Source of the DNA: Acidobacteriota bacterium
GTDB lineage: Bacteria > Acidobacteriota > Terriglobia > Bryobacterales > UBA6623
Direction of reading: 5' to 3'
Length of the DNA: 64,000 nucleotides
Assembly: GCA_016125275.1 (NCBI GenBank)
Contig: WGMB01000003.1
Span: 744,001 to 808,000, forward strand
Positions within the stretch are counted from its first letter, which is position 1. Each line of letters begins with the position of its first letter. The notes beneath the pieces were generated by a model. That model saw nothing but the letters and a program-made list of their open reading frames with translations, was not told where the DNA came from and ran no database searches. Below are positions 16,524 through 42,024 of this stretch, piece by piece. The translations under genes were made by a program, and so were the position numbers.

Positions 16524-16542
16524 CCCCTCCAACACTCCCCCC

Positions 16543-26100: not shown

Positions 26101-28424
26101 TGCGCGTTCGACAGCCCTGGATCGCTTCACTGGCGCTGCTGCTGGCCGCTCTGCCCGCGGCGGCGCAGCGCCGGATCGCCGTGGTGGTGGACACGTCGAT
26201 CTCCATGAAGGAGAACGATCCGCAGGACTACGCCGAACAGATCTCGAAGATCGTGGGAGACATCGCCGGGGACGGCGACCGCTACGCCGTCTTCCGCATG
26301 ATGAACGAGCAGCAGGCGGCCGAAGCGACCCGAGCGGCCGAGCAAGGCGCCATGGTCGAAGCGGCCCGGCGCATCGGGATTCGCATTCCCCTGCCCGGCG
26401 GCTATCGCCCCTTCAACGAAGACTGCTCGGCGCCGCCCGACCCGAGCGTCCAGCTCGAGCTGCGCGGCCCGCGCGAGAGCTTCAAGAGCCAGCTCTCCCG
26501 CTTTCTGATCTACAACAACTACACCCACTTCGCGCGGGCACTGCACACGGCGTTTCAGTTTCTGGGCAACTCCGGGCCGCGGCTGCTGCTGATCGTCGCC
26601 GACGCCGGCGGGCTGGGCGAGTGCGAGGTCCCGCTGATGCGCGGCCTCAACGATCTGCGCGCCAGCGGCGCGATGATCGCCGCCGTCAACCTCGGCGAGG
26701 ACATGGGCTCCTTCCGCGGCGACCCGCCGTTCAATTTCACGCGCGCCACCCGCAACGCTTTTGATCTGGCGACGGCCGTGGGCGAGGTCTACCAGCGCTT
26801 TCTGGGAGCCAAGAACGTCAAGAACGGCCCCCTGCGCGGCGACGTGGTGGTGGAGATCGACGACTTCGTCAAGGAAGCCTATCTGGTGGTGGCGGCCGAC
26901 GGCCCGCTGCCCGCTCTGCGCGAAGGCGGCGGCAATCCGGGCGCGGACGAGCTCGTCTTGGACTACCGTGGCGGCGGCAGCACCGTCGGGCTCGACGGCG
27001 TGAACCGCGGCTACCGCATCGTCAAGTTCACAAACCCTCGCGCCGGACGCTGGACCTTCCAGACGGGCTCGCGTACCGGCGGCGGCTGGATCCTCATCCA
27101 GGAGCGGGCGGTGGGCCTCCGCATGCTCACCACCACGGCTCCCAGCGGCGAGGAGACGATGCTGACGGTCGAGCCCTACGACGAGCGCACGGGCCTGGCG
27201 ATCAATGACCCCGGCCGACTCGCGGGTCTGTCGGTGGAGGCCAACGTCAACGGCCGCCCGGTCCGCTTCACGCCCGACGCTTCCGGGCGCTACTCGGCCC
27301 GCGTGAGCTTTCCCAGCGCCGGACGCCAGAACGTGGAGGCGCGGCTGCGCGGCGGCGACATCGACCGCACCGTCAACATGACCGTGGACGTGACGGACAC
27401 GCCCCCGCCGCCGCCCGCCCCGGAACCCGTCCCGGCGCCGGAGATCGTGCCGCCGACCGCGCCCGAACCGCTCCCGGAACCCGAGCCGTCCGCGCCGTCC
27501 GTCACGCCCTCATCGCCCGCGCCGTCCACGCCCAGCCCGGCGGCGCCTCCGAGCGAGCCGGCCACGCCGCCGCCTCCTCCTCCGCCCCCGCCCGGTGCGG
27601 CCCAGGAGGATTTCGATTTCGGCCCGCCGCCGAGCCCCATCAAGCTCGGCCCGATGACCAGCGAGAGCTCCGCCTCCGGCAGCCTCGACCTATCGGGCGT
27701 GCGGGTCTCCGCGCCGACCGACGTGGAGCTGACCGCCGACTTCGACCGCTCGCGCGCGCAGCTCGAAGTCGAGGTCAACGGCCAGTGGATGCCGCTGGGC
27801 GAGGACCCTGTGCGGCTGACGCTCCAACCGGGCGGCGCGCAGCGCTACCGTGTGCAGATCCTCACCGAGAAGTGCCCCGCCGCCTGCGCGCCGGACGAGC
27901 CCCATGAGGTCGCCATCCAGGCCCGCCGCGTGGACGGCTCGGTCCTTCGCACGTCGGCTCCTCTGTCGGTCAGCATCGAGCCCGACCCCTGGCTGGACTG
28001 CTACTGGCAGTGGCTGGCCGGCGCCGCCGGCATTCTGCTGGGCGGAATCATCGCCTACGGCTTCATCTCGCCGTCGCGCTTCCCGGCCCGCATCGGCGTG
28101 CAGTTCGCCGCCGAGGAAGACGTCAGCGAGGGCGTCTTCTACGAGATTCGGCGCGCCAGTGGGGCCCACGCCGGCTTCTACCGCGACGCCAGAGTTTACA
28201 TCCAGCCCGACTACCGCCTCACCGGCAAGAAGGCCGGCTCGCTGGCGCGGCTGCGGGCCGACTCCGGCCGCATCCAGATCAAGGAAGACATCCACGGCAG
28301 CCTGGAACGCCTGGCCGTCGACGGAACCTGGGAGCTGCTGCCCGACCGGGAGTTCCCCGTACCCACCGGCGTTCTGTTCCGGACCGTCGACCGCAGCCTG
28401 TATTTCGACCTCCGTACGGGATAA
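26097..28424 (+). CDS. VWA-domain type I membrane protein 4
   Basis: A 775-residue protein: signal peptide (SLALLLAALPAAAQ), VWA domain with DTSIS at residues 32-36 and LLLIVADAGGLGECEVPL. One beta module follows, then a proline-rich linker of about 75 residues (27400-27605, including a run of nine prolines). A Cys-flanked transmembrane helix (CYWQWLAGAAGILLGGIIAY, about residue 634) precedes the conserved cytoplasmic domain (RDARVYIQPDYRLTGKK to YFDLRTG). The linker replaces one of the two DDG-type modules found in VWA protein 3 and could span the periplasm. GGAGG lies before two consecutive ATG codons. This gene ends the overlapping VWA quartet; an 80-bp gap precedes the tubulin-like gene. 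Confidence 0.83.
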   Translation: MMRVRQPWIASLALLLAALPAAAQRRIAVVVDTSISMKENDPQDYAEQISKIVGDIAGDGDRYAVFRMMNEQQAAEATRAAEQGAMVEAARRIGIRIPLPGGYRPFNEDCSAPPDPSVQLELRGPRESFKSQLSRFLIYNNYTHFARALHTAFQFLGNSGPRLLLIVADAGGLGECEVPLMRGLNDLRASGAMIAAVNLGEDMGSFRGDPPFNFTRATRNAFDLATAVGEVYQRFLGAKNVKNGPLRGDVVVEIDDFVKEAYLVVAADGPLPALREGGGNPGADELVLDYRGGGSTVGLDGVNRGYRIVKFTNPRAGRWTFQTGSRTGGGWILIQERAVGLRMLTTTAPSGEETMLTVEPYDERTGLAINDPGRLAGLSVEANVNGRPVRFTPDASGRYSARVSFPSAGRQNVEARLRGGDIDRTVNMTVDVTDTPPPPPAPEPVPAPEIVPPTAPEPLPEPEPSAPSVTPSSPAPSTPSPAAPPSEPATPPPPPPPPPGAAQEDFDFGPPPSPIKLGPMTSESSASGSLDLSGVRVSAPTDVELTADFDRSRAQLEVEVNGQWMPLGEDPVRLTLQPGGAQRYRVQILTEKCPAACAPDEPHEVAIQARRVDGSVLRTSAPLSVSIEPDPWLDCYWQWLAGAAGILLGGIIAYGFISPSRFPARIGVQFAAEEDVSEGVFYEIRRASGAHAGFYRDARVYIQPDYRLTGKKAGSLARLRADSGRIQIKEDIHGSLERLAVDGTWELLPDREFPVPTGVLFRTVDRSLYFDLRTG

Positions 28425-28504: not shown

Positions 28505-31500
28505 ATGGCGGATGAGTCGAGTCTGAAGCTCCAAGGGAAAGTCCCGCCGCGAATGTTCGTGGGCCTCGGCGGAACCGGCTCCAAGATCGTCGACCGCATG
28601 GCTTCGCGGGCCAAGCAGCTCCCTTTTTGGGATGAAGCCTTACGCCCGCTGACGAGCTTTGTGTCGATCGACACCGACATCAACGACCAGAACCAGCTCG
28701 AGCACGTCCCGCGCGGCAACAAGATCACCATCGGCGCCTTCGACAAGGCGCAAGCCGTGGAGAACTACCGCAAGTCCGGCGACCAGCAGGCTCTGCAATG
28801 GCTGGACAAGGCCTACAAGCCGCGGCCGGGCGGGGGCTTCGGCGCCGGCCAGATCCGCGTCGAGTCCCGGCTGGGGTTCCACTACTCCAGCCCGCAGATC
28901 CGCGAGCGCTTCACGCAGCTGTTGCGCCACCTGCTGGAAGCCGACAACACGTTCCGGCTGTCCGACCCGCCCACGATCTACGTCTATCTGTACGCCACGC
29001 TAGCGGGCGGCACCGGCTCAGGCAGCTTTCTGGCGACCGCCTACCTGTTGCAGGACGTGATCCGCAGCCTGCACTGGCGGCCGCGCGTGATCGGTAATTT
29101 CCTGCTCTCCACCACGCTGCTCAACAAGGTCGCGCCGGACCTGCACCAGGACATCCACGCCAACACCTACGCCGCGCTCAAGGAGCTGGAGCACCTCACC
29201 AAGATCCAGTACCCGGACGTCCAGAAGGACATGCCCAACGGCGAGGTCTTCGTCTACTGGAACAACACCTCCACCTCGGAGCTGCCACGCGTCAAGCAGG
29301 CTCCGTTCTACTATTCGTCGATCTATGACCTGCCGCCGCAGATGGCCGTCAGCGACATCGTCTCGGTCGCCGCCGACGCCACTTTCTGGCAAGCTTTTAC
29401 GCCCATCATCGGCCGCATCCTCAGCGAGGCCGACAACTACGAGAAGCATCTGACCGAGCTGACGCGCTTTCCCGGCGAGCTCAAGAACGTCGGCCGCGGC
29501 TACTCGAAGAACTTCGGCGCCTTCGGACTGGCCACGCTGGTGCTGCCGGCGGAAGACCTGCTCGAATACTCCGCGCTGCGCTTCGCCGCCGAGGCCCTGC
29601 GCCGCCAGATCACCTTCGGCGTCAGCCCCGACGCCACCGACGACCGCGCCCGTGCGCTGGAGCGCCTGCAGGTCAACTACGAAGATCCAAAGTTCCGCAA
29701 CATGGCGGAAGAGGACCGCTACCGCGAGATCAACAAGGCCTTCGTGCTCTCCGTGCAGGCCATGGCGCAGCAGGACGAGCGCGACGAGCTGACCAACGGC
29801 TACTGGCAGCGTTTGGTGGAGGACGTCGACCTGGGCCGCAAGACCGGCGGCGTGGACGACAACGGCGAGCCCCGCCGCGCCGACACCTTGATCGTCAAGG
29901 TCCGCGAGGCGCTCGCCAAACAGCGCGAGCCCATCCTCAACCGCATCTCGATCAAGCAGCGCACGTTCGTCTTCCACCGCGAAGGCGTCAATCAGTACGT
30001 GCAGCAGGTCAGCGGCTTGGTGGAGGACGTGCGCAAGGCCTCGGTCCTGATCGACGAAGGCCTGGAAGCCGTCCGCAACTCGGCCGCCGAGGGCGACGTC
30101 GTCCGCGACCTCAAGCTCGACCCGATGCAGGAGCGCTACCTCGTGTTGCGCTTGCTGCATCTGCTCGAGACCGAGATCATGCCCGAGGTGAAGGAGCGCT
30201 ACGAGAAGACCGAGCGCGCCAGCCTCGAGAACGCCAAGGTCAAGGAGCGGCTGGAGACGGAGTTCCTCGAGAACCTGCGGCAGGCCGCCGACGCCAAGAA
30301 GTGGCTCTTCCGGCACGACGAAGAGACCTTCCTGCGCACTCGCGACGAGGCCCAGGACAACTTCCAGAAGATCGCCCAGGCGCAGAAGCGCTTCTTCGAC
30401 GCCAAGCTCGAGATGGCGCAGTACAAGGAGCTGCTCGAGTACCTGCACAAGCGCGCCCACTTGTTCGCGCGGCTCGCCACGCGGATGAACGACCTGGTGC
30501 AGGACCTCGAATCCGAGGCCGAGTCGCTGCGTCGCGGCGCCAACCCCATCATTCCGCGCATGGCTCTGACGGTCGAGATCTTCGAGACGCTCGACAAGCC
30601 CCGCCGCCGGCTGTGGCCTGAGGTCTACCGGGCGCTGTTCGTGGACGCCGGCCGCGACATGACGACCTACGACCGCAACGCTCTGTCGCAAGCGATCGCC
30701 GAAGAGCTCAAGCCGGTCAAGGACCCCGGCAGCGGCCGCTTCATGGAGAAGTCCGAACGGCAAGCCGTGGTCGACCTGCGTCAGGCTCTGGTGAAGCTCG
30801 GTCGCGACCGGCTGCGGCGGTCGATCTACGGCGACGAAGACGTCAAGGGCCTCACGATCGAGACCGGCCTGGAGCTCGAAGCGCGTCTGCTGACGCCGGG
30901 CCGCGCCGGCGAGCCGCCCACCAAGGCCGAGCTCGACCACTACGTCGACAAGAAGCTGGTGGCCTTCTCGCAGTTGGCCGGCGTGACGGCGCGGTTGCGC
31001 TCGGAAGAGCTGGATACGCTCGATGACGGCGTCAAGGTCGCTCAGACGCGTCACTACGTGCTCAAGGCCGGCTCGGTGTCTCCGGACTTCGACCAGCGCC
31101 TGCGCCGCATCCTGGAGCGCGGCGGCCGCGAGCCGCAGCACTCGGACTGGTCCAGCCCGCACCTGGCGATCGTGCACGACATGGAGTTGCCGATCCCGTT
31201 GTACTACTTCAGCGCCGTGGTGGGCGAGATCGAGGCGGCCTACGAGCGCGCCGCCGCCAACGAGCGCCGCTCCTACCACCTGCACACCGACTATCACTGG
31301 GAAGCGGCCCTGCCCAACCTAAACCCGCGCAAGAGCGAGCTGAGCGCCTCCTGGGCCTTGGACCGGCTGGTCGACGGCCTGCTCACTCAGGTCGTCTTCA
31401 AGACCGCCCAGGGACTGTTCTGGCGCAGAGGCTCCGGCGAGGACGAGCCGCTGGGCGAGAACCTCGCCGCTGCGCTCTACACGTTGGGGGAATACCACCT

Positions 31501-31831
31501 CGACAAGGATCTCGGCCCGCGCTTCGCCGCCATGATCGACGCCGCCAAGGAGTCCTTCGGCGCCGACGAGCTGCGCCGACGCGCCGAGATGCTCAGCGCT
31601 TGGGCGGGCAAGCTGCTCGAAGACATTGCGATGGCGGCTCGCCGGGGCGAAAACAGCCGCCAGGAAGAGCTCGATCAGCCGGTGCTGCGCGTCATCCAGT
31701 CGATGGTCAAGGGCCTGCTCGACGCCAAGCCGACCCGCCCGTTCACCAAGGGCTCGGCGGGGCCTGCGTCGCGCGTGCTGGCCAGCGAGCTGAGCTTCGA
31801 CGCGCCGGCCGACGACAACCCGGTGCAATAG
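28505..31831 (+). CDS. Tubulin/FtsZ-superfamily protein (Tubulin_2 / FtsZl-type)
   Basis: An 1108-residue cytoplasmic protein. Residues 18-31 (FVGLGGTGSKIVDR) form the N-terminal nucleotide-binding strand-loop. The tubulin signature GGTGSG lies at about residues 167-172 (ATLAGGTGSGSFLATAYLL). SFVSIDTDIN resembles the acidic loop that contacts the nucleotide. These mark the Tubulin_2/FtsZl branch, whose members sit beside VWA and GTPase genes and are predicted to remodel membranes. The remaining 700 residues are highly charged and helical, including ERLETEFLENLRQAADAKK, probably coiled-coil arms absent from FtsZ. GGAGG sits 6 nt before the ATG. Expected activity: GTP-dependent polymerisation; this is family inference and filament formation is unproven. 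Confidence 0.82.
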   Translation: MADESSLKLQGKVPPRMFVGLGGTGSKIVDRMASRAKQLPFWDEALRPLTSFVSIDTDINDQNQLEHVPRGNKITIGAFDKAQAVENYRKSGDQQALQWLDKAYKPRPGGGFGAGQIRVESRLGFHYSSPQIRERFTQLLRHLLEADNTFRLSDPPTIYVYLYATLAGGTGSGSFLATAYLLQDVIRSLHWRPRVIGNFLLSTTLLNKVAPDLHQDIHANTYAALKELEHLTKIQYPDVQKDMPNGEVFVYWNNTSTSELPRVKQAPFYYSSIYDLPPQMAVSDIVSVAADATFWQAFTPIIGRILSEADNYEKHLTELTRFPGELKNVGRGYSKNFGAFGLATLVLPAEDLLEYSALRFAAEALRRQITFGVSPDATDDRARALERLQVNYEDPKFRNMAEEDRYREINKAFVLSVQAMAQQDERDELTNGYWQRLVEDVDLGRKTGGVDDNGEPRRADTLIVKVREALAKQREPILNRISIKQRTFVFHREGVNQYVQQVSGLVEDVRKASVLIDEGLEAVRNSAAEGDVVRDLKLDPMQERYLVLRLLHLLETEIMPEVKERYEKTERASLENAKVKERLETEFLENLRQAADAKKWLFRHDEETFLRTRDEAQDNFQKIAQAQKRFFDAKLEMAQYKELLEYLHKRAHLFARLATRMNDLVQDLESEAESLRRGANPIIPRMALTVEIFETLDKPRRRLWPEVYRALFVDAGRDMTTYDRNALSQAIAEELKPVKDPGSGRFMEKSERQAVVDLRQALVKLGRDRLRRSIYGDEDVKGLTIETGLELEARLLTPGRAGEPPTKAELDHYVDKKLVAFSQLAGVTARLRSEELDTLDDGVKVAQTRHYVLKAGSVSPDFDQRLRRILERGGREPQHSDWSSPHLAIVHDMELPIPLYYFSAVVGEIEAAYERAAANERRSYHLHTDYHWEAALPNLNPRKSELSASWALDRLVDGLLTQVVFKTAQGLFWRRGSGEDEPLGENLAAALYTLGEYHLDKDLGPRFAAMIDAAKESFGADELRRRAEMLSAWAGKLLEDIAMAARRGENSRQEELDQPVLRVIQSMVKGLLDAKPTRPFTKGSAGPASRVLASELSFDAPADDNPVQ

Positions 31832-31850: not shown

Positions 31851-34247
31851 ATGAAGCGGCATCCCACCATCCTCGTCGGCTACGGGGCCTACGGACGCAC
31901 CGTGCTGGAACGGTTGCTCCGTGGGGCCGCCGCGCGCGGCGTGCTCGCCTGGGAAGAGCGCGACGACCCCTCGTCGCTGCAACGCCGGCGGCTGCAATCG
32001 CTGGCCCTGCTGTGGGCGCCCGACCCGCTCGAAGGCGGCGCCACCGACGAAGCTCCCCCTGAGGTGATGCTCGACCTCTATCGCCAAATCGAGGAGATCG
32101 ACATCCCCGACGGCGACGCCGGACGCGCCCTGGCCCACGCCGCCGCGGCCGCCAAGCGCCGGCTGCACGCCGCCGACGCCGCGAACGCCGCCGAGCGCAG
32201 CCACGGCCTCGACGTCATCGTGGTCGCCCACGCCAGCCGCGCCGAGTCCGTGGGCCGCTTGCAGGAGATGCTCGAGCCCATGCTGCACGAGCTCTCGCAA
32301 GGCCGCTCGATGACGCGCGTCAAGGAAGGCGAGGACTACCTCAACTTCCTGCAAATCCTCGATTTCGAGGAGTACTGGCGCAAGGCTCCCGAGAACAACC
32401 GCCTACGCGAAGCCCTCGCCCACGCCTTCCAGCGCAACGAGCAGGCGGCGCAGCGCCACGAGCCCGCCTTCGGCCGCATCTACCTATTCGACAGCGAGAC
32501 CCAGGGCGGCCATCGCAACCGCGACGCCCGCATCGACGAGGCCTCGCTGTTCCTGGAGTTCCTGCTGTTCGAGGGGCAGCGCCACGGAGCCGGCGAGCGG
32601 CTGTATCAGCGCGAGTCCGACGGCGTGCCGCCGGCCGCCACCGTCGGCATCCGCAGCATCCAGCTCAGCTTCGGGCTGGTGGCTCGGCTGAGCGCCGCCA
32701 CCTATTCGCGGCTGTTCCTGGACTACCTCATCAAGCGCGGCGAGAGCCCGCGACGCGACGCATTGCGCGAGCACTTCGCCGACTACCTGCCCGAGCGCAT
32801 CGAGCAGACCCTGGGGCTGACGCGCATCGACGCCATGCGGCAGAAGGGTCTCGACGAGATCGAGGGCAAGCTCTTGCAGCTCGACCCGACCGACCCGGAT
32901 TGGCCCGAGCAGGTGCGCCGCGGCTGGCAGCAGGCGATTTGGGGCTTGAAGGATCAGATCTCGCAAGAAGCAGGCCACGAGTCCCGCGACATCGCCGACC
33001 AGCGCCTCGGCAAGCTGCGGCAGGACCTCGAAGCGGCCGTGCTGCGCGAGCTCGACGCCGTGCGCGACCCGCTCACCGTCGGCCAACTGCTCGACCAGAT
33101 CGAACGCCTCGAGCCCTTGCTGCGCTACGAGCCGGCCGCGAGCGCCGAAGCGCCTCCGGAGCAGCAGGACCCCTTCGTGGGCATCGCCGCACGCCACCAG
33201 GACTACCTGCGCTTTCAGGCCGGACGCGTCAAGACCGAGCAGCTCGCCGACAAGTGGTGGCCGCTGCTGGCCGTGGTCTTCGCGCTGGCCGCCGCGCCGT
33301 TCGCCCTGGACGCCCTCGCGGAGTTCTTCGTCCTGGAAGGCGCGGCCGCGCAGGTCCTGCCGTTCGTGGTGACGGCGGCGTTCTGGCTGCTGGGCTGGCA
33401 GCTCGGCCGGCAAGTCTTCCAGCGCTCGATCGAGCAGCGCTCCCAGCGCGCCGACGAGTTCTACCGTCACGCCCAGCGCGGCCGTCTGACTGACTGCGTG
33501 CGCGCCGCCACCCGCTCTTCGGCCTTGCAGCAGGAGTTGCGCGCCCACTGCGACAACGTGGCCGCCTCGCTGCGGATGCGCGTGCTGGGCGACGTGCTCG
33601 GCGAGCTGCTGCGCATCAAGGACCTGCTGAGCCGGCGCGCCCGCGAGATGCACTGGCTGACCGATCAGCTCGGCAAGTTCCTCGACATGAACGGCGTGGA
33701 CCCGCGCCTGCCGCGCCCGCAGTTCTATGACCGCCAAGGGCCCAACACCGCCCTGAGCCAGCTCGAACGCAACGAAGACCTGGCGGCGGTCTTCCGCCAG
33801 CGCACCGCCGAGCCGACGCATTTCGGCGAACGGCAGACCAAGCTCAATCTCTTCAAGGACTGGGCTTCGCGCTACTGCGAAGAGTTCCTGCGGCCTTTGG
33901 CGTTTCTCGACAAGCTCAGTGCGGACTACCGCGACCCGATCCACTCCGGCAACGGCGAAGGGCCTTCGGTGCCCGAGCAGGAGCGGGCCCGCTCGCTGGG
34001 CGAGGCTGTCCGCCGGAACTCCAAGCTGCCCCTGGCCTTCCAGCTCCTCAAGGCCGATCAGCTCCCCGATTCGACCCGCCTGAGCGTCTTTCCGGACGCC
34101 TGGTGGCGCCTGCCGGCGATCTCCAACGAGCTCAGCGAGGCCGGCTACGCAGACCCCGTGAAGGCCGTCGGCGCCGAGCGCGCCTACTTCCTCGAGATGC
34201 AGCTCGGCGTGCCCACCCGCCTGCTCGAGCTGGAGGAGGGCCGATGA
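31851..34247 (+). CDS. Membrane-associated protein with degenerate tubulin-like N terminus
   Basis: A 798-residue protein not matched to a named family. Its start (HPTILVGYGAYGRTVLERLL) parallels the preceding gene (PRMFVGLGGTGSKIVDRMAS), and a later strand-loop (LDVIVVAHASRAESVGRLQEM) sits where that protein has its GGTGSG signature. It may thus be a paralogue that lost GTP binding. Residues about 465-520 contain two hydrophobic segments (WWPLLAVVFALAAAPFALDA; VLPFVVTAAFWLLGWQLG), which anchor it to the inner membrane as a hairpin. Charged helices flank them. It lies 19 bp after the tubulin-like gene and overlaps the next gene by 4 bp. Inferred role: membrane tether for the tubulin-like protein. 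Confidence 0.7.
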   Translation: MKRHPTILVGYGAYGRTVLERLLRGAAARGVLAWEERDDPSSLQRRRLQSLALLWAPDPLEGGATDEAPPEVMLDLYRQIEEIDIPDGDAGRALAHAAAAAKRRLHAADAANAAERSHGLDVIVVAHASRAESVGRLQEMLEPMLHELSQGRSMTRVKEGEDYLNFLQILDFEEYWRKAPENNRLREALAHAFQRNEQAAQRHEPAFGRIYLFDSETQGGHRNRDARIDEASLFLEFLLFEGQRHGAGERLYQRESDGVPPAATVGIRSIQLSFGLVARLSAATYSRLFLDYLIKRGESPRRDALREHFADYLPERIEQTLGLTRIDAMRQKGLDEIEGKLLQLDPTDPDWPEQVRRGWQQAIWGLKDQISQEAGHESRDIADQRLGKLRQDLEAAVLRELDAVRDPLTVGQLLDQIERLEPLLRYEPAASAEAPPEQQDPFVGIAARHQDYLRFQAGRVKTEQLADKWWPLLAVVFALAAAPFALDALAEFFVLEGAAAQVLPFVVTAAFWLLGWQLGRQVFQRSIEQRSQRADEFYRHAQRGRLTDCVRAATRSSALQQELRAHCDNVAASLRMRVLGDVLGELLRIKDLLSRRAREMHWLTDQLGKFLDMNGVDPRLPRPQFYDRQGPNTALSQLERNEDLAAVFRQRTAEPTHFGERQTKLNLFKDWASRYCEEFLRPLAFLDKLSADYRDPIHSGNGEGPSVPEQERARSLGEAVRRNSKLPLAFQLLKADQLPDSTRLSVFPDAWWRLPAISNELSEAGYADPVKAVGAERAYFLEMQLGVPTRLLELEEGR

Positions 34248-37171
34248 GCTTCGAGATCAACAGCCTGCTGCCGGCCATCGTCCTGATCCTGGGACTCGTC
34301 GCGGCGCTCGTCGCCGAGCTGGCCGCCCGTGCCAAGGCCGACGGCGGAGACACGGGAACCTACTGGAGCCGCATCGCCGCCCGCACCTGCGTGGCGATCG
34401 CCGCGCCGTTGCTGGCGCTGTACCTCATCGTCACGGCTTTCCCGGACGCGCGTGCTTCCATCCCGGGCGTCGACCGCCAGGAGTACTGGCTCTTCGCGCC
34501 GCTGCTGCCCTGGAGCTTGCTGCTGGTTCTGGGACTGTTCCAGGCCGCGCCGGCCGCCGCCGGCCGTTGGCTGGCGGGCTCCATCGGCTACCAGATCGAC
34601 CGGCGGGGCTGGGCGGCCCTGTGCGCGCTGCCGCTGGCGGGACTGCTGGCGATGGGCTGGAGCCGTCTCGGCAACGCCCCCTCGTCGTACCCGGCCGCCA
34701 ACTGGACGACGGCCGCCCTGCTCTCGATCACGCTGCTGGCCGTCGCCCGCAGCAAGCCGGCAGCGGCCGCGGCGGCCGCCGCCGAGGCGCCCGCCGAGCA
34801 GGCCAAGCCCGGGCCCTCTCTGCCGGACTGGCCCGAGGCCATGCGCGCCGGAGGCGTCGCGCTGGCGGATCTGTTCTCGCGGCCGGCGTCGCTGCTCAAG
34901 CCGCGCCCGACGGCCTCCGACCGGCTCATCGCGGAGTGGCGCGAACGCATCGCCGCCAAGGGCTCGCTGGGCGTCTCCGACACGTTGCTCGAAGCCGTCC
35001 ACGAGCTGACGCGTCCGCAGGCCGTGGCTCCCGGCGCGGAGCGCAATCGGCTGATCCTGGCCCCGGACAACTGCGGCCAGCATGAGGTAGTGGGGCTGGC
35101 CGCCGCCGACCTCTCGCGCAAGCTGGGCGAGGCGACGCTCATCATTACGCCCTGGCCGCGGCCGGACCTCACCGAGCGCATCAAGCGCTGGGCCGCCCCT
35201 CCGGAGGGCTCCACGGAGCTGCCCGCGCGCGTCGCCGCGCCCCGCTCCTGGAAGGACTTGCAGGAAGCCGGCGACGCCGACGTCTGGATCGTGGACGCCG
35301 AGACTCTCTCGGACCGCCTGCTGCCGCGGCTGCGCTACGAGGCCAACAAGCCGAACCTGCAACAGCGCAACCTGGTGTCGCGCATCGGCATGGTCGTGTG
35401 GTGGGACGTGCACGCCTACACCGGCGCGCTGGCGGCGAACATCTGGGCGATCTCGCGGCGGCTGCACCGCATCATCCGCGCCCACGGCCGCCCCGGCGTC
35501 CGCGCTCTGGCGCTGGCGCGCGGAGCGGCCTACGGCAACGCCGAGCTCTCGCCCTTCCTGCAACGTGTGCTGCCCTACCGCTTCACCCGCGACCAGGAGA
35601 CGCGCATCGAAACCGCCTACGTGCGCCCCTTGCGGGCCTACCGCATCGAGCACGACCGCGAGCTGATGCGCACGCGCGCCGCCGACGTGCTGCCCGAGCG
35701 CGCCAAGCGCCTGCCGCTGACCGCCGCCCTGGTCTCCACGCAGTCGGGCTGGACCACCCGGCTCGACGCCCCGCCGCACATCACCGCCATCGAGCGCGAG
35801 AGCCTGGAGAAGGCCCACCTGGGCGACGACGCCATCGTCGCCGACCGGCTGACCACCGAACGCCCCGAAGCCGGCGCCAGCATCCTGCCGATCACCGAGG
35901 CCTCCGCGCTGTCCCTGCCGGAGATGCTTTGCCAGGGTGCGCGCTCCACCCCGGCCGGCCCGCCGCACTGTGTCGGCATCCTGCCGCCGGACAACCCCTA
36001 CCTGGAATACCTGCTGCAAGCCTTTGACCGCGACGACTCCCCGTGGCGGTCCTCGCGGCTGCTGATTCGCGCCGAGGGCAACCCGAACATCGTCCGCCGC
36101 CACCTGCTGCATGCCCTCTATGAGGTGGAGGAGACCCGCCGCGGCCTGGAGACCTCCCTGGGCTGGAACCGGGACATCCTGCTGGCGACGCTCCGCGAGC
36201 TCGCCGGAACCGGTCAGCTCATCCGCCGCGAGGTGCTTTTCCTGGACGACGAGGGCCTGCTGCAAGCCGACTGGCTGTGCCGCAACGACCAGCCGCCCGA
36301 CTCCCGGCCGCGCCCCCTACGCACCGTCAGCTCGGAGCTGATCGAAGTCCGTAACCTCGCCGCCGGCGACGTCGAGGAGGCCGTACCGCTGGAGGTCGAC
36401 CCGGACCGCGCCGGCATCGAGGCCTACCCCGGCAAGGTCTTCGTCACCGACGGCCGCCGCTACCGCATCGACGAGTGGCAGTCCCACCAGACCGTCAAGG
36501 ACCGCCGCCAGATCGCCTGCGAGCAGACCGACCAGTACCTGGTCACCTGGCGCCAGCGCTACCCGCAGATCCAGCGGCTGCAGAAGGTCGGCGACGAGAT
36601 CACGCTCGAAGGGTTGGGCGTGATCACGCACCGCTTCGTGGCCGACGCCGTCTACCGCGAGCATCTCGACGGCTGGCTCGAACGCGACGGGTCGGGACGG
36701 CTCGACCTGCGCAAGCTCGAACGCCCGGTGCGAACGTCGTTCACCACCCGGACTCTCACGCTGAGCTTCGACCCCGCCCCGGACGAGAAGGCCCTGGACG
36801 CCATGGCCGCCGCTTTCCGCCTGATGCTGCCCGTGCACCTCGGCGCCGACGACGACAGCCTGGAGGTGGTGGCCATCCACGGCCTGCGCGCCGGGCGCGA
36901 CTACGTGCACGGCGTCGCCATCGTGGATCTCTACCCCGGCGGCATCGGCTTGGTGGAAGCCATTGAAGCCGACAACGCGCTGCTGCAAAATATCTTCAAG
37001 TGGACCCACCAGTGGCTGCGCGAGGTGGCGCGCGAGGGCTTGGCCGGCGCCGATCGCCTGTCGGCCTCGCCGCTGGTGCGCGCCGCCGAGGGCGACGCGA
37101 CCCTCGATTTCGCCGCCGCCGAGGAGCTGCTGGCCCGGCTGAGTAACGCCGCCCACGCCGCAAGACGATGA
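34244..37171 (+). CDS. Multi-pass membrane protein fused to a degenerate MrfA/Hrq1-like (DUF1998) helicase
   Basis: A 975-residue protein. About five hydrophobic helices occupy the first 175 residues. The rest parallels MrfA/YprA-type superfamily 2 helicases in order: LILAPDNCGQHEV (about 270) where Walker A should be, VWIVDAETLSDRLLPRLR for the motif Ib region, VVWWDVHAYTGALAANI plus SRRLHRI (about 385) for the DEVHTYRG-type motif II, YPGKVFVTDGRRYRI (about 727), and LYPGGIGLVEAI (about 896) for DUF1998. The Walker lysine, the DE pair and the four C-terminal cysteines are all lost, so ATPase or helicase activity is not expected. The ATG at 34244 overlaps the previous gene by 4 bp; an in-frame ATG at 34103 lies inside that gene. 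Role unknown, probably a scaffold. Confidence 0.72.
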   Translation: MSFEINSLLPAIVLILGLVAALVAELAARAKADGGDTGTYWSRIAARTCVAIAAPLLALYLIVTAFPDARASIPGVDRQEYWLFAPLLPWSLLLVLGLFQAAPAAAGRWLAGSIGYQIDRRGWAALCALPLAGLLAMGWSRLGNAPSSYPAANWTTAALLSITLLAVARSKPAAAAAAAAEAPAEQAKPGPSLPDWPEAMRAGGVALADLFSRPASLLKPRPTASDRLIAEWRERIAAKGSLGVSDTLLEAVHELTRPQAVAPGAERNRLILAPDNCGQHEVVGLAAADLSRKLGEATLIITPWPRPDLTERIKRWAAPPEGSTELPARVAAPRSWKDLQEAGDADVWIVDAETLSDRLLPRLRYEANKPNLQQRNLVSRIGMVVWWDVHAYTGALAANIWAISRRLHRIIRAHGRPGVRALALARGAAYGNAELSPFLQRVLPYRFTRDQETRIETAYVRPLRAYRIEHDRELMRTRAADVLPERAKRLPLTAALVSTQSGWTTRLDAPPHITAIERESLEKAHLGDDAIVADRLTTERPEAGASILPITEASALSLPEMLCQGARSTPAGPPHCVGILPPDNPYLEYLLQAFDRDDSPWRSSRLLIRAEGNPNIVRRHLLHALYEVEETRRGLETSLGWNRDILLATLRELAGTGQLIRREVLFLDDEGLLQADWLCRNDQPPDSRPRPLRTVSSELIEVRNLAAGDVEEAVPLEVDPDRAGIEAYPGKVFVTDGRRYRIDEWQSHQTVKDRRQIACEQTDQYLVTWRQRYPQIQRLQKVGDEITLEGLGVITHRFVADAVYREHLDGWLERDGSGRLDLRKLERPVRTSFTTRTLTLSFDPAPDEKALDAMAAAFRLMLPVHLGADDDSLEVVAIHGLRAGRDYVHGVAIVDLYPGGIGLVEAIEADNALLQNIFKWTHQWLREVAREGLAGADRLSASPLVRAAEGDATLDFAAAEELLARLSNAAHAARR

Positions 37172-39618
37172 GCGACCTGAGCACACGCGACCGTTTGGAG
37201 GAAGCCGCCCGCCGGCTCGACGAGTGGCAGTCTAAGCTCCCGGGGTCCTTCGGGCCCTTCCACGCCCAGCGGCAAGCCGCCCTGGACCGCCTGCGCGAGC
37301 TCTCCGGTTCGAGCTTCAAGCTGATGTTCGCCAACAAGGCCTCGGTGGACGAGCTGCTGTTGCAGGCCACCACCGTGGATCAGCTCGGCGCGGGACTCGA
37401 CGAGGTCTGCCGGCGCGCCTCGCAGCTCCAGTCCGAAATCAGCGCGCTGGAAGCGTTGTTGCGTTCGCAGGACAGTGGCCCCTTCGCGGCATCGGTGGAG
37501 CAGCGCCACCGGGAATGGCTGGCCGAGCTCGAGCCCTTGGGCCGCGATGTGGCGCGCACGGCCGAGCTCAAGGGCCCCCGCCAGACCTTGCAGGACTTCC
37601 AGCGGCGCATCCCGCGCGACCAGATTGCGCTTTCCCTGCTGGCCGAAACGGTAGAGCTGTTGCGCGACCTCGACAAGCTGGGCCGCATCGGCTTGGAGGG
37701 CGACCTCAAGCGCTGGCGCGAGGAGTTTCTGCGCGACGGCCCCTCGCATCACTGGACCGACCAGGTCCGCAACAAGCTCGAGACCTACCGCAAGAACCGC
37801 GACGAGCACGTCCGCAAGATCGAGAACCTGCCGGGGAAGCAGGAACTCGGCGACCTGAAGAAGAAAGCCATTCCGCAAGCCTCGGACTGGGCCCAGACGC
37901 TGGCCGACTTCCGCACGGCGGCGCCGCCGGTGGATGGCGAACCGGCGCCGTCGGACGCCCTGGAGCGCATCCGCGACATCGACAACCGCATCCAGCTCGC
38001 GCGGCGCTCCCCCGACCTCACCGCCGAGGCGGCCGACGCCATCCGGGTGGAGGTCGAGGAGCTGTTGCAGGCCTTGGCCGCCACGGCCCGCCTGCGCACT
38101 CGCGCGAGCCTGCTGCAACTGCGCAAGCGCATGGAGCTGTTCTGCGACGCCTGCCGCACCGGCGCCGCCCGCGACGAGCGTATCGCCAGGATCGAGCAGC
38201 GCATCGCCGCCCTCGACGACGCACCGCTGGCGGAGCCCGTCGACCTGCAAGACTTCGCCACCGAGCTCAGTGAGGCCAAGACGGAGTTCGAGGGCCTGGC
38301 CGCCAACCAGCGCGGAACCCTGGCGGCCGCCGCGGGCGAGGCCATCCAGACCCTGAACGACGCGGTGACGCGGTTGCTGGACCTGTCGCACCCGCAGGAG
38401 GTCTCCCAAGGCGTCCACCGCAACCGCGCCCAGATCCCCGACGCTCCCGGCGGCGAGCCGCAAGCGCAGCAGTCGCTGGCGCTGCTGGAGATCTGCGACC
38501 GCATCAGCGTCGACTTGGCTCGGCTGGAGGAGCTCTCCGCCGCCGCCCGGCAGCGCTTCGCCAAACGCCGCGAGAGCGCCTTGGCGCGCCGCTCGGAGAT
38601 CGCCGGCGTGTGGGAGGCCCTCGGCCGGCCCGCCCCGGACGCCTTCGAGGCCACGACCGTGCGGCTCGACGCGCTCGCCCGGCCCTCCGCCGGGGCGGCC
38701 CTAGAGCACTATGAGGGGCAGCTCGACGCCATTGACAAGACGCTCGCCGAGAGCTTGACCGAGGCCGTCGGTCTGGCCTCGCAGGAACTGGAGCAGCGCC
38801 GCGCCCTGTGCGCCGAGAGCGCCCGGGCCCTCGAAGCCGTGCAGCGCCTCGCGCCGCCGGCGCCGGACTGGCCCGACGCCCTGGACGGCTTGACCGCTCC
38901 GGCCGTGCAAGAACTGCTGGGGCGTTCCCAAGCCCTGGAAGCCGTCTACCGCCGCGAGCTGGCCGAAGCCGCCGTGGCCGTCCGCGAGCAGACTCAGGCC
39001 GCGGCCGAAGGATTGCGCGCCTTCGTGCAGGGCGTGGCCCAGAGCGGCGACTCCAAGCGCATCTGGGCCGAGCACCTGCTGGCGGACTTCGACGACATCC
39101 AACGGCTCGGCGACGTGGACGAAGCGGTGCAGGTGCTCGAATCGGCGCGCTGGCTCGCCGGCCACCGCACCTTCCAAGAAGAGCTGCGCCGCAGCGAGAC
39201 GCGCGCCCGCGAGCTGCGAGAGCAGGTTCGCGCGATGCAGCTCGAGATCCAGAAGGACAGCCGCCACCGCTACGCCTTCACGCTGTTCGAGCGCGCCCGC
39301 CGGTTGCTCGAAGGCGTTCCCGAAGAGCCCGCCGACTGGGAACAGGCGGTGATGCAGCTCAACGAGGCCGAGCGCACTCTGGCGCTGGCGGACCGCGAGG
39401 CTAAGCGGCGGATCGCGCTCGAGCTGCGCGAGACCGCCCGCAACCTCAAGGGCGTGGTGCAGAGGGAGTCTCGGCCGGAGGCCCGCCGCGAAGTCGAGTC
39501 CAAGCTCGACAAGCTGGCCCGCCAGCCGGCTGCGGCGACGCCGCCCAACGATATCCGCCGCGAGCTGCTCTACCAAGCGCTGCAGCTCGGCGTCTCTCCC
39601 TCCCGCCTGCGCCGCTGA
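37168..39618 (+). CDS. Large coiled-coil/helical-repeat protein of the tubulin operon
   Basis: An 816-residue protein, highly charged and almost entirely helical by eye. It has many heptad-like stretches (RDRLEEAARRLDEWQSKL, RARELREQVRAMQLEIQKD, RRIALELRETARNLKGV) and recurring Leu/Arg/Glu/Ala repeats of about 100 residues reminiscent of spectrin-like bundles. There is no signal peptide, transmembrane helix or nucleotide-binding motif, so it is probably cytoplasmic. It overlaps the pseudohelicase-like gene by 4 bp and precedes the GTPase gene by 14 bp. Within a membrane-remodelling machine such a protein could be a rod, spacer or adaptor between the tubulin-like and GTPase components; that is inference. 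No family name can be given. Confidence 0.72.
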   Translation: MSDLSTRDRLEEAARRLDEWQSKLPGSFGPFHAQRQAALDRLRELSGSSFKLMFANKASVDELLLQATTVDQLGAGLDEVCRRASQLQSEISALEALLRSQDSGPFAASVEQRHREWLAELEPLGRDVARTAELKGPRQTLQDFQRRIPRDQIALSLLAETVELLRDLDKLGRIGLEGDLKRWREEFLRDGPSHHWTDQVRNKLETYRKNRDEHVRKIENLPGKQELGDLKKKAIPQASDWAQTLADFRTAAPPVDGEPAPSDALERIRDIDNRIQLARRSPDLTAEAADAIRVEVEELLQALAATARLRTRASLLQLRKRMELFCDACRTGAARDERIARIEQRIAALDDAPLAEPVDLQDFATELSEAKTEFEGLAANQRGTLAAAAGEAIQTLNDAVTRLLDLSHPQEVSQGVHRNRAQIPDAPGGEPQAQQSLALLEICDRISVDLARLEELSAAARQRFAKRRESALARRSEIAGVWEALGRPAPDAFEATTVRLDALARPSAGAALEHYEGQLDAIDKTLAESLTEAVGLASQELEQRRALCAESARALEAVQRLAPPAPDWPDALDGLTAPAVQELLGRSQALEAVYRRELAEAAVAVREQTQAAAEGLRAFVQGVAQSGDSKRIWAEHLLADFDDIQRLGDVDEAVQVLESARWLAGHRTFQEELRRSETRARELREQVRAMQLEIQKDSRHRYAFTLFERARRLLEGVPEEPADWEQAVMQLNEAERTLALADREAKRRIALELRETARNLKGVVQRESRPEARREVESKLDKLARQPAAATPPNDIRRELLYQALQLGVSPSRLRR

Positions 39619-39632
39619 AGGACCCTCGACCC

Positions 39633-40478
39633 ATGGAAGAAGCCCCCCAGCAGGATATGGAGCAGCAAGAGCCCTCGGTCGCGCCCCCGGCCGAAGCCGA
39701 GGAGGACGGCCGCGTCGCCCTGTGGGGTCCGTCGGCCTCCGGCAAGACGGCCTTCCTGGCGCTGCTCTACCTGCGCTCCACCGAGTTCAAGAAAGCCGGC
39801 TGGACGGTCTACCTCGGCGATCAGCAGACCAAGGAGTGGTTGCAGGACATGCGGCAGACGATCGACGTCCGCAACCGCTTCCCCAAAGCCACCTCCGCCG
39901 CCATCGACCGCATTCGGCTCTCCTACGTGTTCGTCAGCCAGCGGAGCGGCCACCGCTTCGTGCTCGACACCGACGACCGCCCGGGCCTGCGCTACGAGGA
40001 GATGGACGCCGACGTGCTCCAGTCCCTGCTGCGCGCCAAAGGCCGGCTGTTCTTCTTCGATCACACCGGCGAACCCAAGCGCCGCCGGGACCAGATCCTG
40101 CGCGCCTTCGAGGATCTGCACAGCGCCGGCCGGCCCTACCGCGAGACCGATCTCGACCCCAACCCCATCGCCATCTGCCTGACCAAGGCGGACATGCTGA
40201 TTCACTCGCCCGAGGACCTGCGCCGCGCCCGCGAGGAGCCGCAGGAGTTCGTGCTCGAACGCATGGAGCCGGAGCTGCTGAGCTGGGCCGAGAACTACTT
40301 CACCAAGATCCGCCTCTTCCCCGTCTCGTCGGTCGGCGTGGAACTGCTGCACGGCGTGGTGCGGCCGGCCATCTTCTTCGACGAGCGGCTGGAGGCCCGC
40401 TGGGCGAGGGTCTGCCAGCCGCTCAATCTGTTCGAACCTTTCGAGTGGATCTTCCGCTCCATGGACAACGATGCCTGA
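39633..40478 (+). CDS. Small P-loop GTPase of the tubulin/VWA system
   Basis: A 281-residue protein. An acidic, Gln/Pro-rich N-terminal tail of about 25 residues is followed by Walker A GPSASGKT (residues 32-39), a DxxG-like switch in LDTDDRPGLRYEE (about 112-118) and a G4-type base-specificity motif TKAD (ICLTKADML, about residue 187). The last 60 residues (WAENYFTKIRLFPVSSVGVELL) fit the late strand-helix of Ras-like GTPases, with PVSS resembling the G5 SAK loop. It corresponds to the distinct GTPase reported near FtsZl genes. No membrane helix is seen. It overlaps the next gene by 8 bp, so the two products probably interact. GTP preference rests on TKAD and is likely. Confidence 0.82.
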   Translation: MEEAPQQDMEQQEPSVAPPAEAEEDGRVALWGPSASGKTAFLALLYLRSTEFKKAGWTVYLGDQQTKEWLQDMRQTIDVRNRFPKATSAAIDRIRLSYVFVSQRSGHRFVLDTDDRPGLRYEEMDADVLQSLLRAKGRLFFFDHTGEPKRRRDQILRAFEDLHSAGRPYRETDLDPNPIAICLTKADMLIHSPEDLRRAREEPQEFVLERMEPELLSWAENYFTKIRLFPVSSVGVELLHGVVRPAIFFDERLEARWARVCQPLNLFEPFEWIFRSMDNDA

Positions 40479-42024
40479 GCTTCCGCCCTGGCCGGCCTTC
40501 GGCCCTCGTCCGCAGGCTCCCGACGAGCCGCTCACGGTCCACCGGGCCGTGCTGGGCAAGGTGCACCAAGCCGCCTCGGACTTCCGCTGGATCACCCACA
40601 GCGAGGCGATCCAGCCGCGCAAGCTCGGCCTCGATCGGCTGCTCAGCCTCGGCCCCGAAGACGCTCCCATACGCACCTACGCCTGGCGGTCGCTGGTCGG
40701 CGCGGCCGTGGCCGTGGTCGGCTACCGCAGCCGGGCGGTCGATCGCAGCGGCCGGTCGGGCGGTCTCGAAAAGCAGATCCTCTACTGGCCGCAGCCCGAG
40801 CAAAACCAGCGCATCGCCGGCGCCTTCGCACTGCTGGGCGCCCTGGCGGACGCCTCCGAAGCCGTCTGGTGGGACCACTGGGACAGCTACCGCTGGGACG
40901 AGCCGGACTTTTACCTGCGGCGCAAGGAGGACGAAGTCGCCTGCGACGGGCTGGAGGCGGCCATCTCGCGCGGCCTGGCGGAGCTGCGCGAAGCCGTCGA
41001 AGACGAGGCGCTGCTGGCGCGCTTCTACGCCGAGCTGCTCAGCGGCCCGGGCTCGCGCCCGGCGCTGCTCGACGGGCTCGCCGAGCCGCTCCCGCCGCTG
41101 GCTCTGGCGGCCTTGCTGCTGCCCCTGCCGGTCCAGGCGGCCTTCCGGGTCTCACTGGCCGGCTCTCTGCCCAACAGCCGCCACCTGCCCGAGAGCCTCT
41201 CCAACTGGGAGGGAGCGGTTCGCACCGCCGGCCAGCCGCCCGTTTCGGGCGAAGCCGCGGCCATCTCGGCGGAGGTTCAAGACCGGGCCGCGGAGATGGC
41301 CCGGGCCGCCTGGACGGGCGACGCCTCGCGGCTGGGGGCCGCGCCCCGGCCCACGGTCACAGCCCCGGAGCCTTCACCGGCGCCGGCTCCCACGCCGCGG
41401 CCCGCGCCGGTTCGCGCCGCGCCGGTTCGCGCCGCGCCCATTCCCGCGCCGGTCCAGCCCGAGCCGGAGCCGTCTCCCCAAGCCCCTGAGCCGCCCGAAA
41501 CGGTCCGCCCCGCGGAGCCCGTCAGCCGGCCGCCCGCCCTCTCCGAACCCGCCGCCCGCTTCGAGCGCTTTCTGCGGGCCGGAGCCGCCGAGCGCTTCCT
41601 GCAATCGGCGCCGGGCGACGCCCAACCGCTTTCCGACGCCGAGGGGCTTTACCTGCTGGCGCTGGCCGAGCAAGCCCTGTCCGACCTCGAACCCGAGGCC
41701 CGTGGAGACGATCCGCGCGCCCGCCAGCTCCGCATCAAGTGCGAGCTCATCCGCGCCTGGTCCACCGCCTACTATCCGCGGCCGGAGGTGTTCACGCGCC
41801 TGCTGCCTTTGAAGAACGGCAAGATCCCGCCGCTGCTGTTCGCCGCCGAGCTCGACCCTGCCGCCTGGGCCCGGCAGTCGCGCTATAGCGACGAGCAGTT
41901 TCGAGACTTGTTGGAGATCAGCGCGCTGCGGCCCGCGCTGTGGACCGACGCCCAGCATCGGGCGATGTCGACCTGGGCCAACACCCCTGCCATCGAGGCC
42001 TTGCGGAAGAAGACCCGACATTGA
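40471..42024 (+). CDS. GTPase-partner-like protein, last gene of the operon
   Basis: A 517-residue protein. The N-terminal 230 residues form a mixed alpha/beta domain with KVHQAASDFRWITHSEAIQP and a Trp-rich segment (AVWWDHWDSYRWDEPDFYL). It resembles, from memory, the N-terminal domains of GTPase-associated proteins encoded next to such GTPases in predicted conflict systems; this match is weak. A Pro/Ala-rich linker (about residues 290-360) contains a 15-bp tandem duplication. The C-terminal 150 residues are helical (LSDAEGLYLLALAEQALSDL). The 8-bp overlap with the GTPase gene supports a functional pair, possibly a regulator or effector. No signal peptide or enzymatic motif is seen. A hairpin follows the stop. 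Confidence 0.65.
   Translation: MPELPPWPAFGPRPQAPDEPLTVHRAVLGKVHQAASDFRWITHSEAIQPRKLGLDRLLSLGPEDAPIRTYAWRSLVGAAVAVVGYRSRAVDRSGRSGGLEKQILYWPQPEQNQRIAGAFALLGALADASEAVWWDHWDSYRWDEPDFYLRRKEDEVACDGLEAAISRGLAELREAVEDEALLARFYAELLSGPGSRPALLDGLAEPLPPLALAALLLPLPVQAAFRVSLAGSLPNSRHLPESLSNWEGAVRTAGQPPVSGEAAAISAEVQDRAAEMARAAWTGDASRLGAAPRPTVTAPEPSPAPAPTPRPAPVRAAPVRAAPIPAPVQPEPEPSPQAPEPPETVRPAEPVSRPPALSEPAARFERFLRAGAAERFLQSAPGDAQPLSDAEGLYLLALAEQALSDLEPEARGDDPRARQLRIKCELIRAWSTAYYPRPEVFTRLLPLKNGKIPPLLFAAELDPAAWARQSRYSDEQFRDLLEISALRPALWTDAQHRAMSTWANTPAIEALRKKTRH
41404..41433 (+). repeat. 15-bp tandem duplication within the linker of the GTPase-partner gene
   Basis: The unit GCGCCGGTTCGCGCC occurs twice head to tail, encoding the peptide repeat APVRA-APVRA in a low-complexity linker. 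It keeps the frame and probably only lengthens a flexible region. Confidence 0.8.

Follow-up and report, generated by a model that had tools for sequence, protein, structure and literature searches.

FtsZl1-class tubulins of bacteria have been on record since 2010, and in the literature that we considered the roles of their operons are only predicted. Makarova and Koonin (2010, PMC2875224) proposed a role in membrane remodelling for operons that join FtsZl1 (Tubulin_2), vWA proteins and a GTPase, and in which kinases are common. For operons with GAP1-N2, DO-GTPase, tubulin and vWA components, Kaur et al. (2020, PMC7159879) predicted that they are conflict systems. In the YprA helicase family, the four-cysteine zinc cluster is missing from the Dpd members (PMC12458937); in DrmAB, DUF1998 acts as a relay and the canopy works in trans for the partner (PMC9142583). 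The word "helicase" occurs 0 times in the main text of PMC2875224 (supplements excluded), the sections of PMC7159879 bearing on tubulin/vWA operons contain no membrane-bound YprA derivative, and neither "tubulin" nor "transmembrane" appears in the main text of the YprA survey of 2025 (PMC12458937). More widely, the open-licence literature searched holds no report of such a helicase in tubulin operons (supplements excluded).

Here we analyse a stretch of 64,000 nucleotides (hereafter the window), which corresponds to positions 744001-808000 of a 7.55-Mb acidobacterial genome (G000). It carries an FtsZl1-type operon that includes a membrane-anchored derivative of the YprA/MrfA helicases without motor motifs, which we call the pseudohelicase.

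Results

The operon and the pseudohelicase gene

The operon consists of tightly packed genes on the plus strand, from 19269 to 42024. Three homologues of the pseudohelicase, sharing 31-36% identity with it, were found in the genomes G294, G635 and G807; together with the window protein they form the four close members of the family. The genes of the operon are the following.

19269-21485, 21482-23749, 23746-26100 and 26097-28424, plus strand: four successive vWA proteins (VWA matches; conserved in G294 and G807)
28505-31831, plus strand: FtsZl1-type tubulin of 1108 aa (Pfam Tubulin_2, E=1.8e-41)
31851-34247, plus strand: 798-aa membrane-hairpin protein, which all four genomes have next to the pseudohelicase
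34244-37171, plus strand: membrane-anchored pseudohelicase derived from YprA/MrfA, 975 aa (intact ORF; E=2e-10 against MrfA by hhalign; three other genomes have homologues)
37168-39618, plus strand: 816-aa protein, overlapping the pseudohelicase by 4 bases
39633-40478, plus strand: DO-GTPase, double-GTPase type 2 (PF19993, E=3.9e-6, 27.1 bits at a cut-off of 27; homologues in the G294 and G807 operons)
40471-42024, plus strand: 517-aa GTPase partner of no assigned family, adjoining the GTPase in G294 and G807 too

The pseudohelicase ORF starts with ATG at 34244 and its stop codon ends at 37171, without interruption; 4-base overlaps join it to both neighbours, upstream (31851-34247) and downstream (37168-39618). 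Since the genome also encodes a canonical MrfA at another locus, the pseudohelicase is best regarded as an extra, specialised copy. Within the protein we distinguish the following segments, all on the plus strand.

34265-34747, plus strand: five predicted transmembrane helices, N-out/C-in (hydropathy and positive-inside counts)
34982-35539, plus strand: RecA1-like lobe, residues 247-432, catalytically degenerate (hhalign piece score; Foldseek and VIA matches to SF2 RecA1 lobes)
35057-35086, plus strand: remnant of motif I (Walker A), LAPDNCGQHE, the lysine being Q in all four homologues
35393-35470, plus strand: remnant of motif II, VVWWDVHAYTG, and the conserved post-motif helix ending RRLHR
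35930-35947, plus strand: motif VI region, CQGARS, which replaces QRxGRAGRR, with a single Arg (R567) common to all four
36806-36970, plus strand: DUF1998/MZB-like segment with the DLYPGGIGLVEA signature (MZB E=0.047 in the window, 6.3e-9 in G635; MrfA 6znp E=0.0014)
37025-37060, plus strand: position of the four-cysteine zinc cluster, which the window protein has lost (VAREGLAGADRL; homologue comparison)

The membrane segments of the window protein lie at residues 8-24, 50-66, 83-99, 122-138 and 152-168, and the identical five-helix layout is seen in the three homologues, hence in 4/4 close family members. Both the helix count and the topology rest on hydropathy. The N-out/C-in orientation is favoured by the positive charges in most rows of the four-protein set, and the body of the pseudohelicase is therefore predicted to face the cytoplasm.

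Descent from YprA/MrfA

Taken individually, the window sequence gives only weak matches: Pfam MZB (MrfA Zn-binding) at residues 855-909 (E=0.047) and the NCBIfam DECH helicase model at residues 377-428 (E=0.0075). Alignment of profiles is far more decisive. The four homologues compared by hhalign with 12 canonical MrfA proteins, drawn from the same order as the window, give E=2e-10 and a score of 92.7 over 356 columns running through the canopy, with an additional, separate collinear match at motif II; on the window protein the MrfA alignment spans residues 541-945, covering the OB-CON-DUF1998 canopy after RecA2. From residue 690 onward alone, E is 2e-11, and the RecA1 piece alone scores 36 versus at most 25 for shuffles, while the RecA2 piece alone reaches no significance against MrfA. 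These hhalign E-values refer to one comparison.

Several other searches point to the same family. A two-sequence profile run against the PDB finds MrfA/YprA (6znp) at the top (E=0.0014); the two aligned parts, motif II and the YPGGIGL region, are collinear. The G635 homologue clears the Pfam MZB cut-off (36.9 vs 24.2 bits, E=6.3e-9). When a five-row profile was run against 396 whole genomes, the family members came first, followed by weaker matches in 31 more genomes; 16 of these 31 genomes' matches were fetched, and 16/16 score 400-1000 bits against a canonical YprA profile, which indicates that the nearest family is YprA and not SF2 helicases at large. The pseudohelicase thus descends from a YprA/MrfA-type SF2 helicase.

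A sceptical reading would be that the resemblance is due to chance, or that the gene is a decaying, functionless relic, and the weakness of the single-sequence matches could be quoted in its favour. Chance similarity to MrfA is ruled out by the controls, which stay far below the observed 92.7 (60 column shuffles, at most 24.9; reversed alignment, 15.3). Against a relic stand four intact ORFs, found in distant families of the phylum, and the conserved gene order. We consider this explanation all but excluded, and its chance part already refuted.

The predicted structure adds consistency rather than proof. An AlphaFold model from the window protein and one homologue had a mean pLDDT of 33 and was discarded. 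A second input, which included four viral YprA sequences and left out the G635 and G807 homologues, brought the RecA1 lobe and some C-terminal parts to pLDDT 60-80, RecA2 remaining mostly below 40; in the profile comparison RecA2 aligns collinearly with MrfA in part only. As this input contained true YprA sequences, the model is biased towards MrfA and is usable for the RecA1 lobe and the DUF1998 parts only. Foldseek ranks four MrfA chains first (E=2e-14 to 1e-8), the next match being at 4e-5; VIA aligns 333 residues to MrfA (Z=17.7, rmsd 10.2 A), whereas some 190 residues within the RecA1 lobe fit many SF2 helicases with comparable Z. When this lobe is taken by itself, VIA places Brr2 chains level with MrfA, and so does not separate SF2 families. 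These modelled matches agree with descent from MrfA and are not independent evidence of it; at the level of prediction they support the RecA1 lobe, and a RecA-type folding of the second lobe is not shown.

A first reading of this DNA (the earlier note) had proposed, from sequence alone, an ORF at 34244-37171 with an MrfA-like body and about five N-terminal membrane helices. All of this held: every landmark that it quoted is present, the same five helices appear by hydropathy here and in the three homologues, and the nearest family is specifically YprA/MrfA (E=2e-10). The absence of any DUF1998 or SF2 match in profile searches would have refuted it; these searches were run and did match, so that the claim stands. 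Its expectation of an MrfA-like structure with two lobes was half met, since the RecA1 lobe and an MrfA-like C-terminus were recovered and RecA2 stayed below a pLDDT of about 40.

Loss of the motor and zinc motifs

Motif I, canonically TPTASGKS, is replaced by APDNCGQH, AAPGLGQE, APDDCGQI and GVDDCGQR in the four homologues. The SGKS core has become a CGQx pattern, GK[ST] reading GQ[HEIR] in 4/4, so that the P-loop Ser/Thr is missing as well as the lysine in every member. Motif II undergoes a comparable change, from IDELH to WWDVH, WWDIH, WFDVH and WWDLH: DELH is turned into [WF]D[VIL]H in 4/4, the Walker-B Asp being replaced by W or F. An Asp stands where the catalytic Glu would be (WD.H) in all four, and the His is invariant. 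Motifs Ia, Ib, III (SAT), V and VI (QRxGRxGR) are not recognisable in the four homologues compared; the losses in 4/4 include the nucleic-acid motifs Ia (PTKAL) and Ib (TNPDMLH). Judged by these motifs, we infer that the four close homologues are uniformly inactive as ATPases.

Some residues of the RecA1 lobe are nevertheless conserved. Those invariant in 4/4 include G278, H390, Y392, G394 and the RR..R of the post-motif-II helix; it is packing or an interface, rather than catalysis, that seems to be under selection. The four ORFs, all without stops, show regional identities of 26-40%, with peaks in the DUF1998 segment and the helical region. Only five family members are known, these four and a distant one described below, which limits any inference on constraint.

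The zinc cluster followed a different course. At its site the window protein has VAREGLAGADRL, versus CACEAGCPSC in the MrfA of the same genome; the cysteines are gone in the window and in G294, and retained in G635 (CKCQLSCANC) and G807 (CPCRSELGCERC). Being intact in 2/4 close homologues, they were presumably lost as a later event on the branch of the window.

The fifth member, in G693, is a 1250-aa relative found in the same gene order (vWA, tubulin, 31851-like, helicase-like). It has six N-terminal membrane segments, an intact P-loop (APEGSGKTT) with VVDD at Walker B, and no zinc cysteines. It clears Pfam DEAD (34.8 vs 26 bits) and aligns with the four homologues over 582 columns (E=2.6e-10). 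Nucleotide binding is thus not foreign to the wider membrane-anchored family. In a tree that also contains YprA proteins, one branch (support 90/97, 88% of bootstrap trees) sets the five membrane proteins apart. The window protein groups with that of G294 (93/90), which means that the zinc loss in this pair can be a single event after the loss of the motor. The G693 branch is very long and its placement unsure, so that this relative may be a partial intermediate, without our being able to affirm it.

Could the close members still be ATPases with an unusual active site, in which Gln and Asp replace the canonical residues, or in which ATP binding survives as in the G693 relative? The APEGSGKTT and VVDD of that relative, together with the Asp at the position of the catalytic Glu and the invariant His in the four, would speak for it. 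However, all four lack the Walker-B Asp and both P-loop residues, Lys and Ser/Thr, and motifs III and VI are lost; this possibility appears very unlikely.

For the claims of the earlier note on these motifs, the balance is uneven. The loss of the Walker lysine and the change of DEVH to WDVH held, the lysine and the Walker-B Asp being lost in all four close homologues. The loss of the zinc cysteines holds for the window and fails as a trait of the family, since G635 and G807 keep them. Uniform inactivity of homologues in the same context held, as judged by motifs, for the four close ones; the distant G693 keeps Walker A. The role of membrane scaffold remains an inference without direct evidence.

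Distribution and partner genes

The G294 homologue of the pseudohelicase (35% identity) lies in the same operon, on contig JAEUQF010000272.1 of a Bryobacterales MAG, and was the sole match in a scan of genome contigs for the family. A phylum-wide profile search added G635 (E=2.8e-164) and G807 (E=1.3e-133). As the patterns of the contig scan do not match these two, rarity is not proved by that scan. In G635 the tubulin runs into a contig end and the pseudohelicase lies on another short contig, which fits one split operon. No member was found in the viral contigs and plasmids searched.

The tubulin of about 50% identity was found in G000, G294, G635 and G807 only, the genomes with the pseudohelicase. 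No family member accompanies about 19 further Tubulin_2 loci of this phylum, a few of which lie on short contigs. The pseudohelicase is thus in fixed partnership with one tubulin subtype; this is shown as co-occurrence, and there is no evidence of contact. An active YprA in the same slot of other tubulin operons was also considered, and rejected across the loci checked, except G693.

Each vWA protein carries a membrane segment at its C-terminus, and most have a hydrophobic one at the N-terminus too. There are four tandem paralogues in the window (19269-28424) versus three in the G807 stretch; the similarity of their C-terminal parts suggests duplication of these genes. The N-terminus of the 31851-34247 protein weakly matches the tubulin (E=0.025), and this hairpin protein might be a second tubulin that has degenerated. 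We also observe that it starts with HPTILVGYGAYGRTVLERLL, resembling the PRMFVGLGGTGSKIVDRM of the tubulin, and that a membrane-hairpin protein in the same slot of G735 (L108:12874-15642) matches Tubulin_2 at E=1.6e-4. The 37168-39618 protein gave no match in the family scans. In G294 (L014:13405-19826) the GTPase and the 40471-like partner occur twice, fitting a "double GTPase" arrangement. Divergent from the operon, the minus-strand region 14994-19182 of the window contains two weak protein-kinase matches, one of them carrying a zinc ribbon and a CarboxypepD_reg domain.

The complete operons contain a DO-GTPase and a tubulin, and the pseudohelicase could be imagined as a regulatory pseudo-subunit exerting allosteric control on one of these NTPases, as DrmB does with the helicase DrmA. 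A canopy acting in trans has a precedent in DrmAB (PMC9142583). Against this, there is no direct evidence of contact, and DrmB is a canopy only, whereas the window protein keeps a RecA1 lobe too. We hold this hypothesis to be unlikely.

No known defence system was detected by PADLOC in the operon, nor any cognate partner set that would make it a member of DISARM or Druantia (2023 library; ARMADA membership is likewise unmatched, that system not being covered). No Pfam GAP1 match was found among the operon proteins scanned; the 40471-42024 protein could be a divergent GAP1. Separately, a YprA-like match in G227 was rejected as a family member, being a DISARM drmA helicase (L017:3-1592) within about 6 kb of another Tubulin_2 gene; tubulin loci can thus sit in defence neighbourhoods.

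In the main rival to a scaffolding role, which remains possible, the protein is a membrane nucleic-acid receptor. The dead body would bind DNA or RNA without ATP, by means of the lobe cleft and the OB-CON-DUF1998 canopy; on sensing nucleic acid that is incoming or damaged, it would set off tubulin/GTPase assembly from the inner membrane as a defence. In favour of it, YprA helicases bind DNA and are central components of DISARM, Dpd and Druantia (PMC12458937), DO-GTPase/tubulin/vWA operons are predicted conflict systems (PMC7159879), drmA stands beside the G227 tubulin locus, and two homologues keep the zinc cysteines. On the other side, motifs Ia and Ib are lost in the four homologues, which counts against the receptor without excluding it, the zinc cluster is missing from the window protein, and neither a known defence system (PADLOC on the operon) nor a viral relative (viral contigs) was found.

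Discussion

We favour, with moderate confidence, the view that the pseudohelicase is a non-motor, membrane-anchored YprA derivative acting as a scaffold or a sensor, a function which is inferred. What supports this reading is established: the homology, the predicted helices, the loss of motor motifs in four intact ORFs and the conserved operon. Scaffolding, sensing, membrane localisation and contact with tubulin are themselves inferences, for which there is no direct evidence.

In such a scheme the cytoplasm-facing body would work without ATP as a docking platform or sensor. Two parts would serve for docking or sensing, the OB-CON-DUF1998 canopy and the post-motif-II helix that the RecA1 lobe has kept. 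The pseudohelicase would keep the tubulin and the GTPase machinery tethered to the inner membrane, the vWA proteins facing outward. By analogy with MrfA and DrmB, whose OB-CON-DUF1998 module shifts on ligand binding, the canopy may pass on a signal rather than power translocation.

A bolder reading is conceivable: a helicase-derived, ATP-independent sensor of nucleic acid or protein in the inner membrane, triggering tubulin assembly via the DO-GTPase, would be a new kind of prokaryotic receptor. The family would then preserve the steps of the conversion, from a P-loop membrane form (G693) through motorless proteins with zinc (G635, G807) to proteins with neither (window, G294).

Returning to the scaffold or sensor, a few Acidobacteria have seemingly converted a DNA motor into a membrane component of a cytoskeletal or defence system that is so far unstudied. 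This motor-less YprA derivative links FtsZl1 operons to a helicase family of DNA repair and phage defence. It is a concrete, testable protein that could tie the tubulin to membrane or nucleic acid, and the family offers a rare series of related proteins for tracing the passage from a helicase to a non-motor part.

Relation to described systems

Like MrfA/YprA of Bacillus subtilis (PDB 6znp, 6znq, 6zns), the family has, in collinear order, the RecA1 motif-II region and the helical, OB, CON and DUF1998 segments; it shares the PGGIG signature and, in two homologues, the CxC..C..C zinc cluster. Unlike MrfA, it has five N-terminal membrane helices, stands in a tubulin operon, and is devoid of the Walker A/B, SAT and arginine-finger motifs, the zinc cluster being lost in the window as well. 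DrmB of DISARM (PMC9142583) is also a non-motor protein with OB, CON and DUF1998, and serves its partner as a relay; it differs in having no RecA lobes, in being paired with an active helicase and in being a soluble complex subunit. Another parallel is Utp25, a validated eukaryotic pseudohelicase in which the SF2 fold is kept and the motor motifs are dispensable (PMC9539457), although it belongs to the DEAD-box lineage and is a ribosome assembly factor.

At the level of the operon, the DO-GTPase, tubulin and membrane vWA proteins recall the systems of Kaur et al. 2020; by contrast, no GAP1 domain was detected by Pfam in the proteins scanned here, and their tubulin theme is stated as confined to Firmicutes and Actinobacteria (PMC7159879). 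The resemblance to the operons of PMC2875224 comprises the FtsZl1 tubulin, the vWA proteins, the GTPase, the nearby kinases and the lineage-specific membrane proteins: Tubulin_2 and vWA in one operon, a criterion for FtsZl1 systems, are present in the window.
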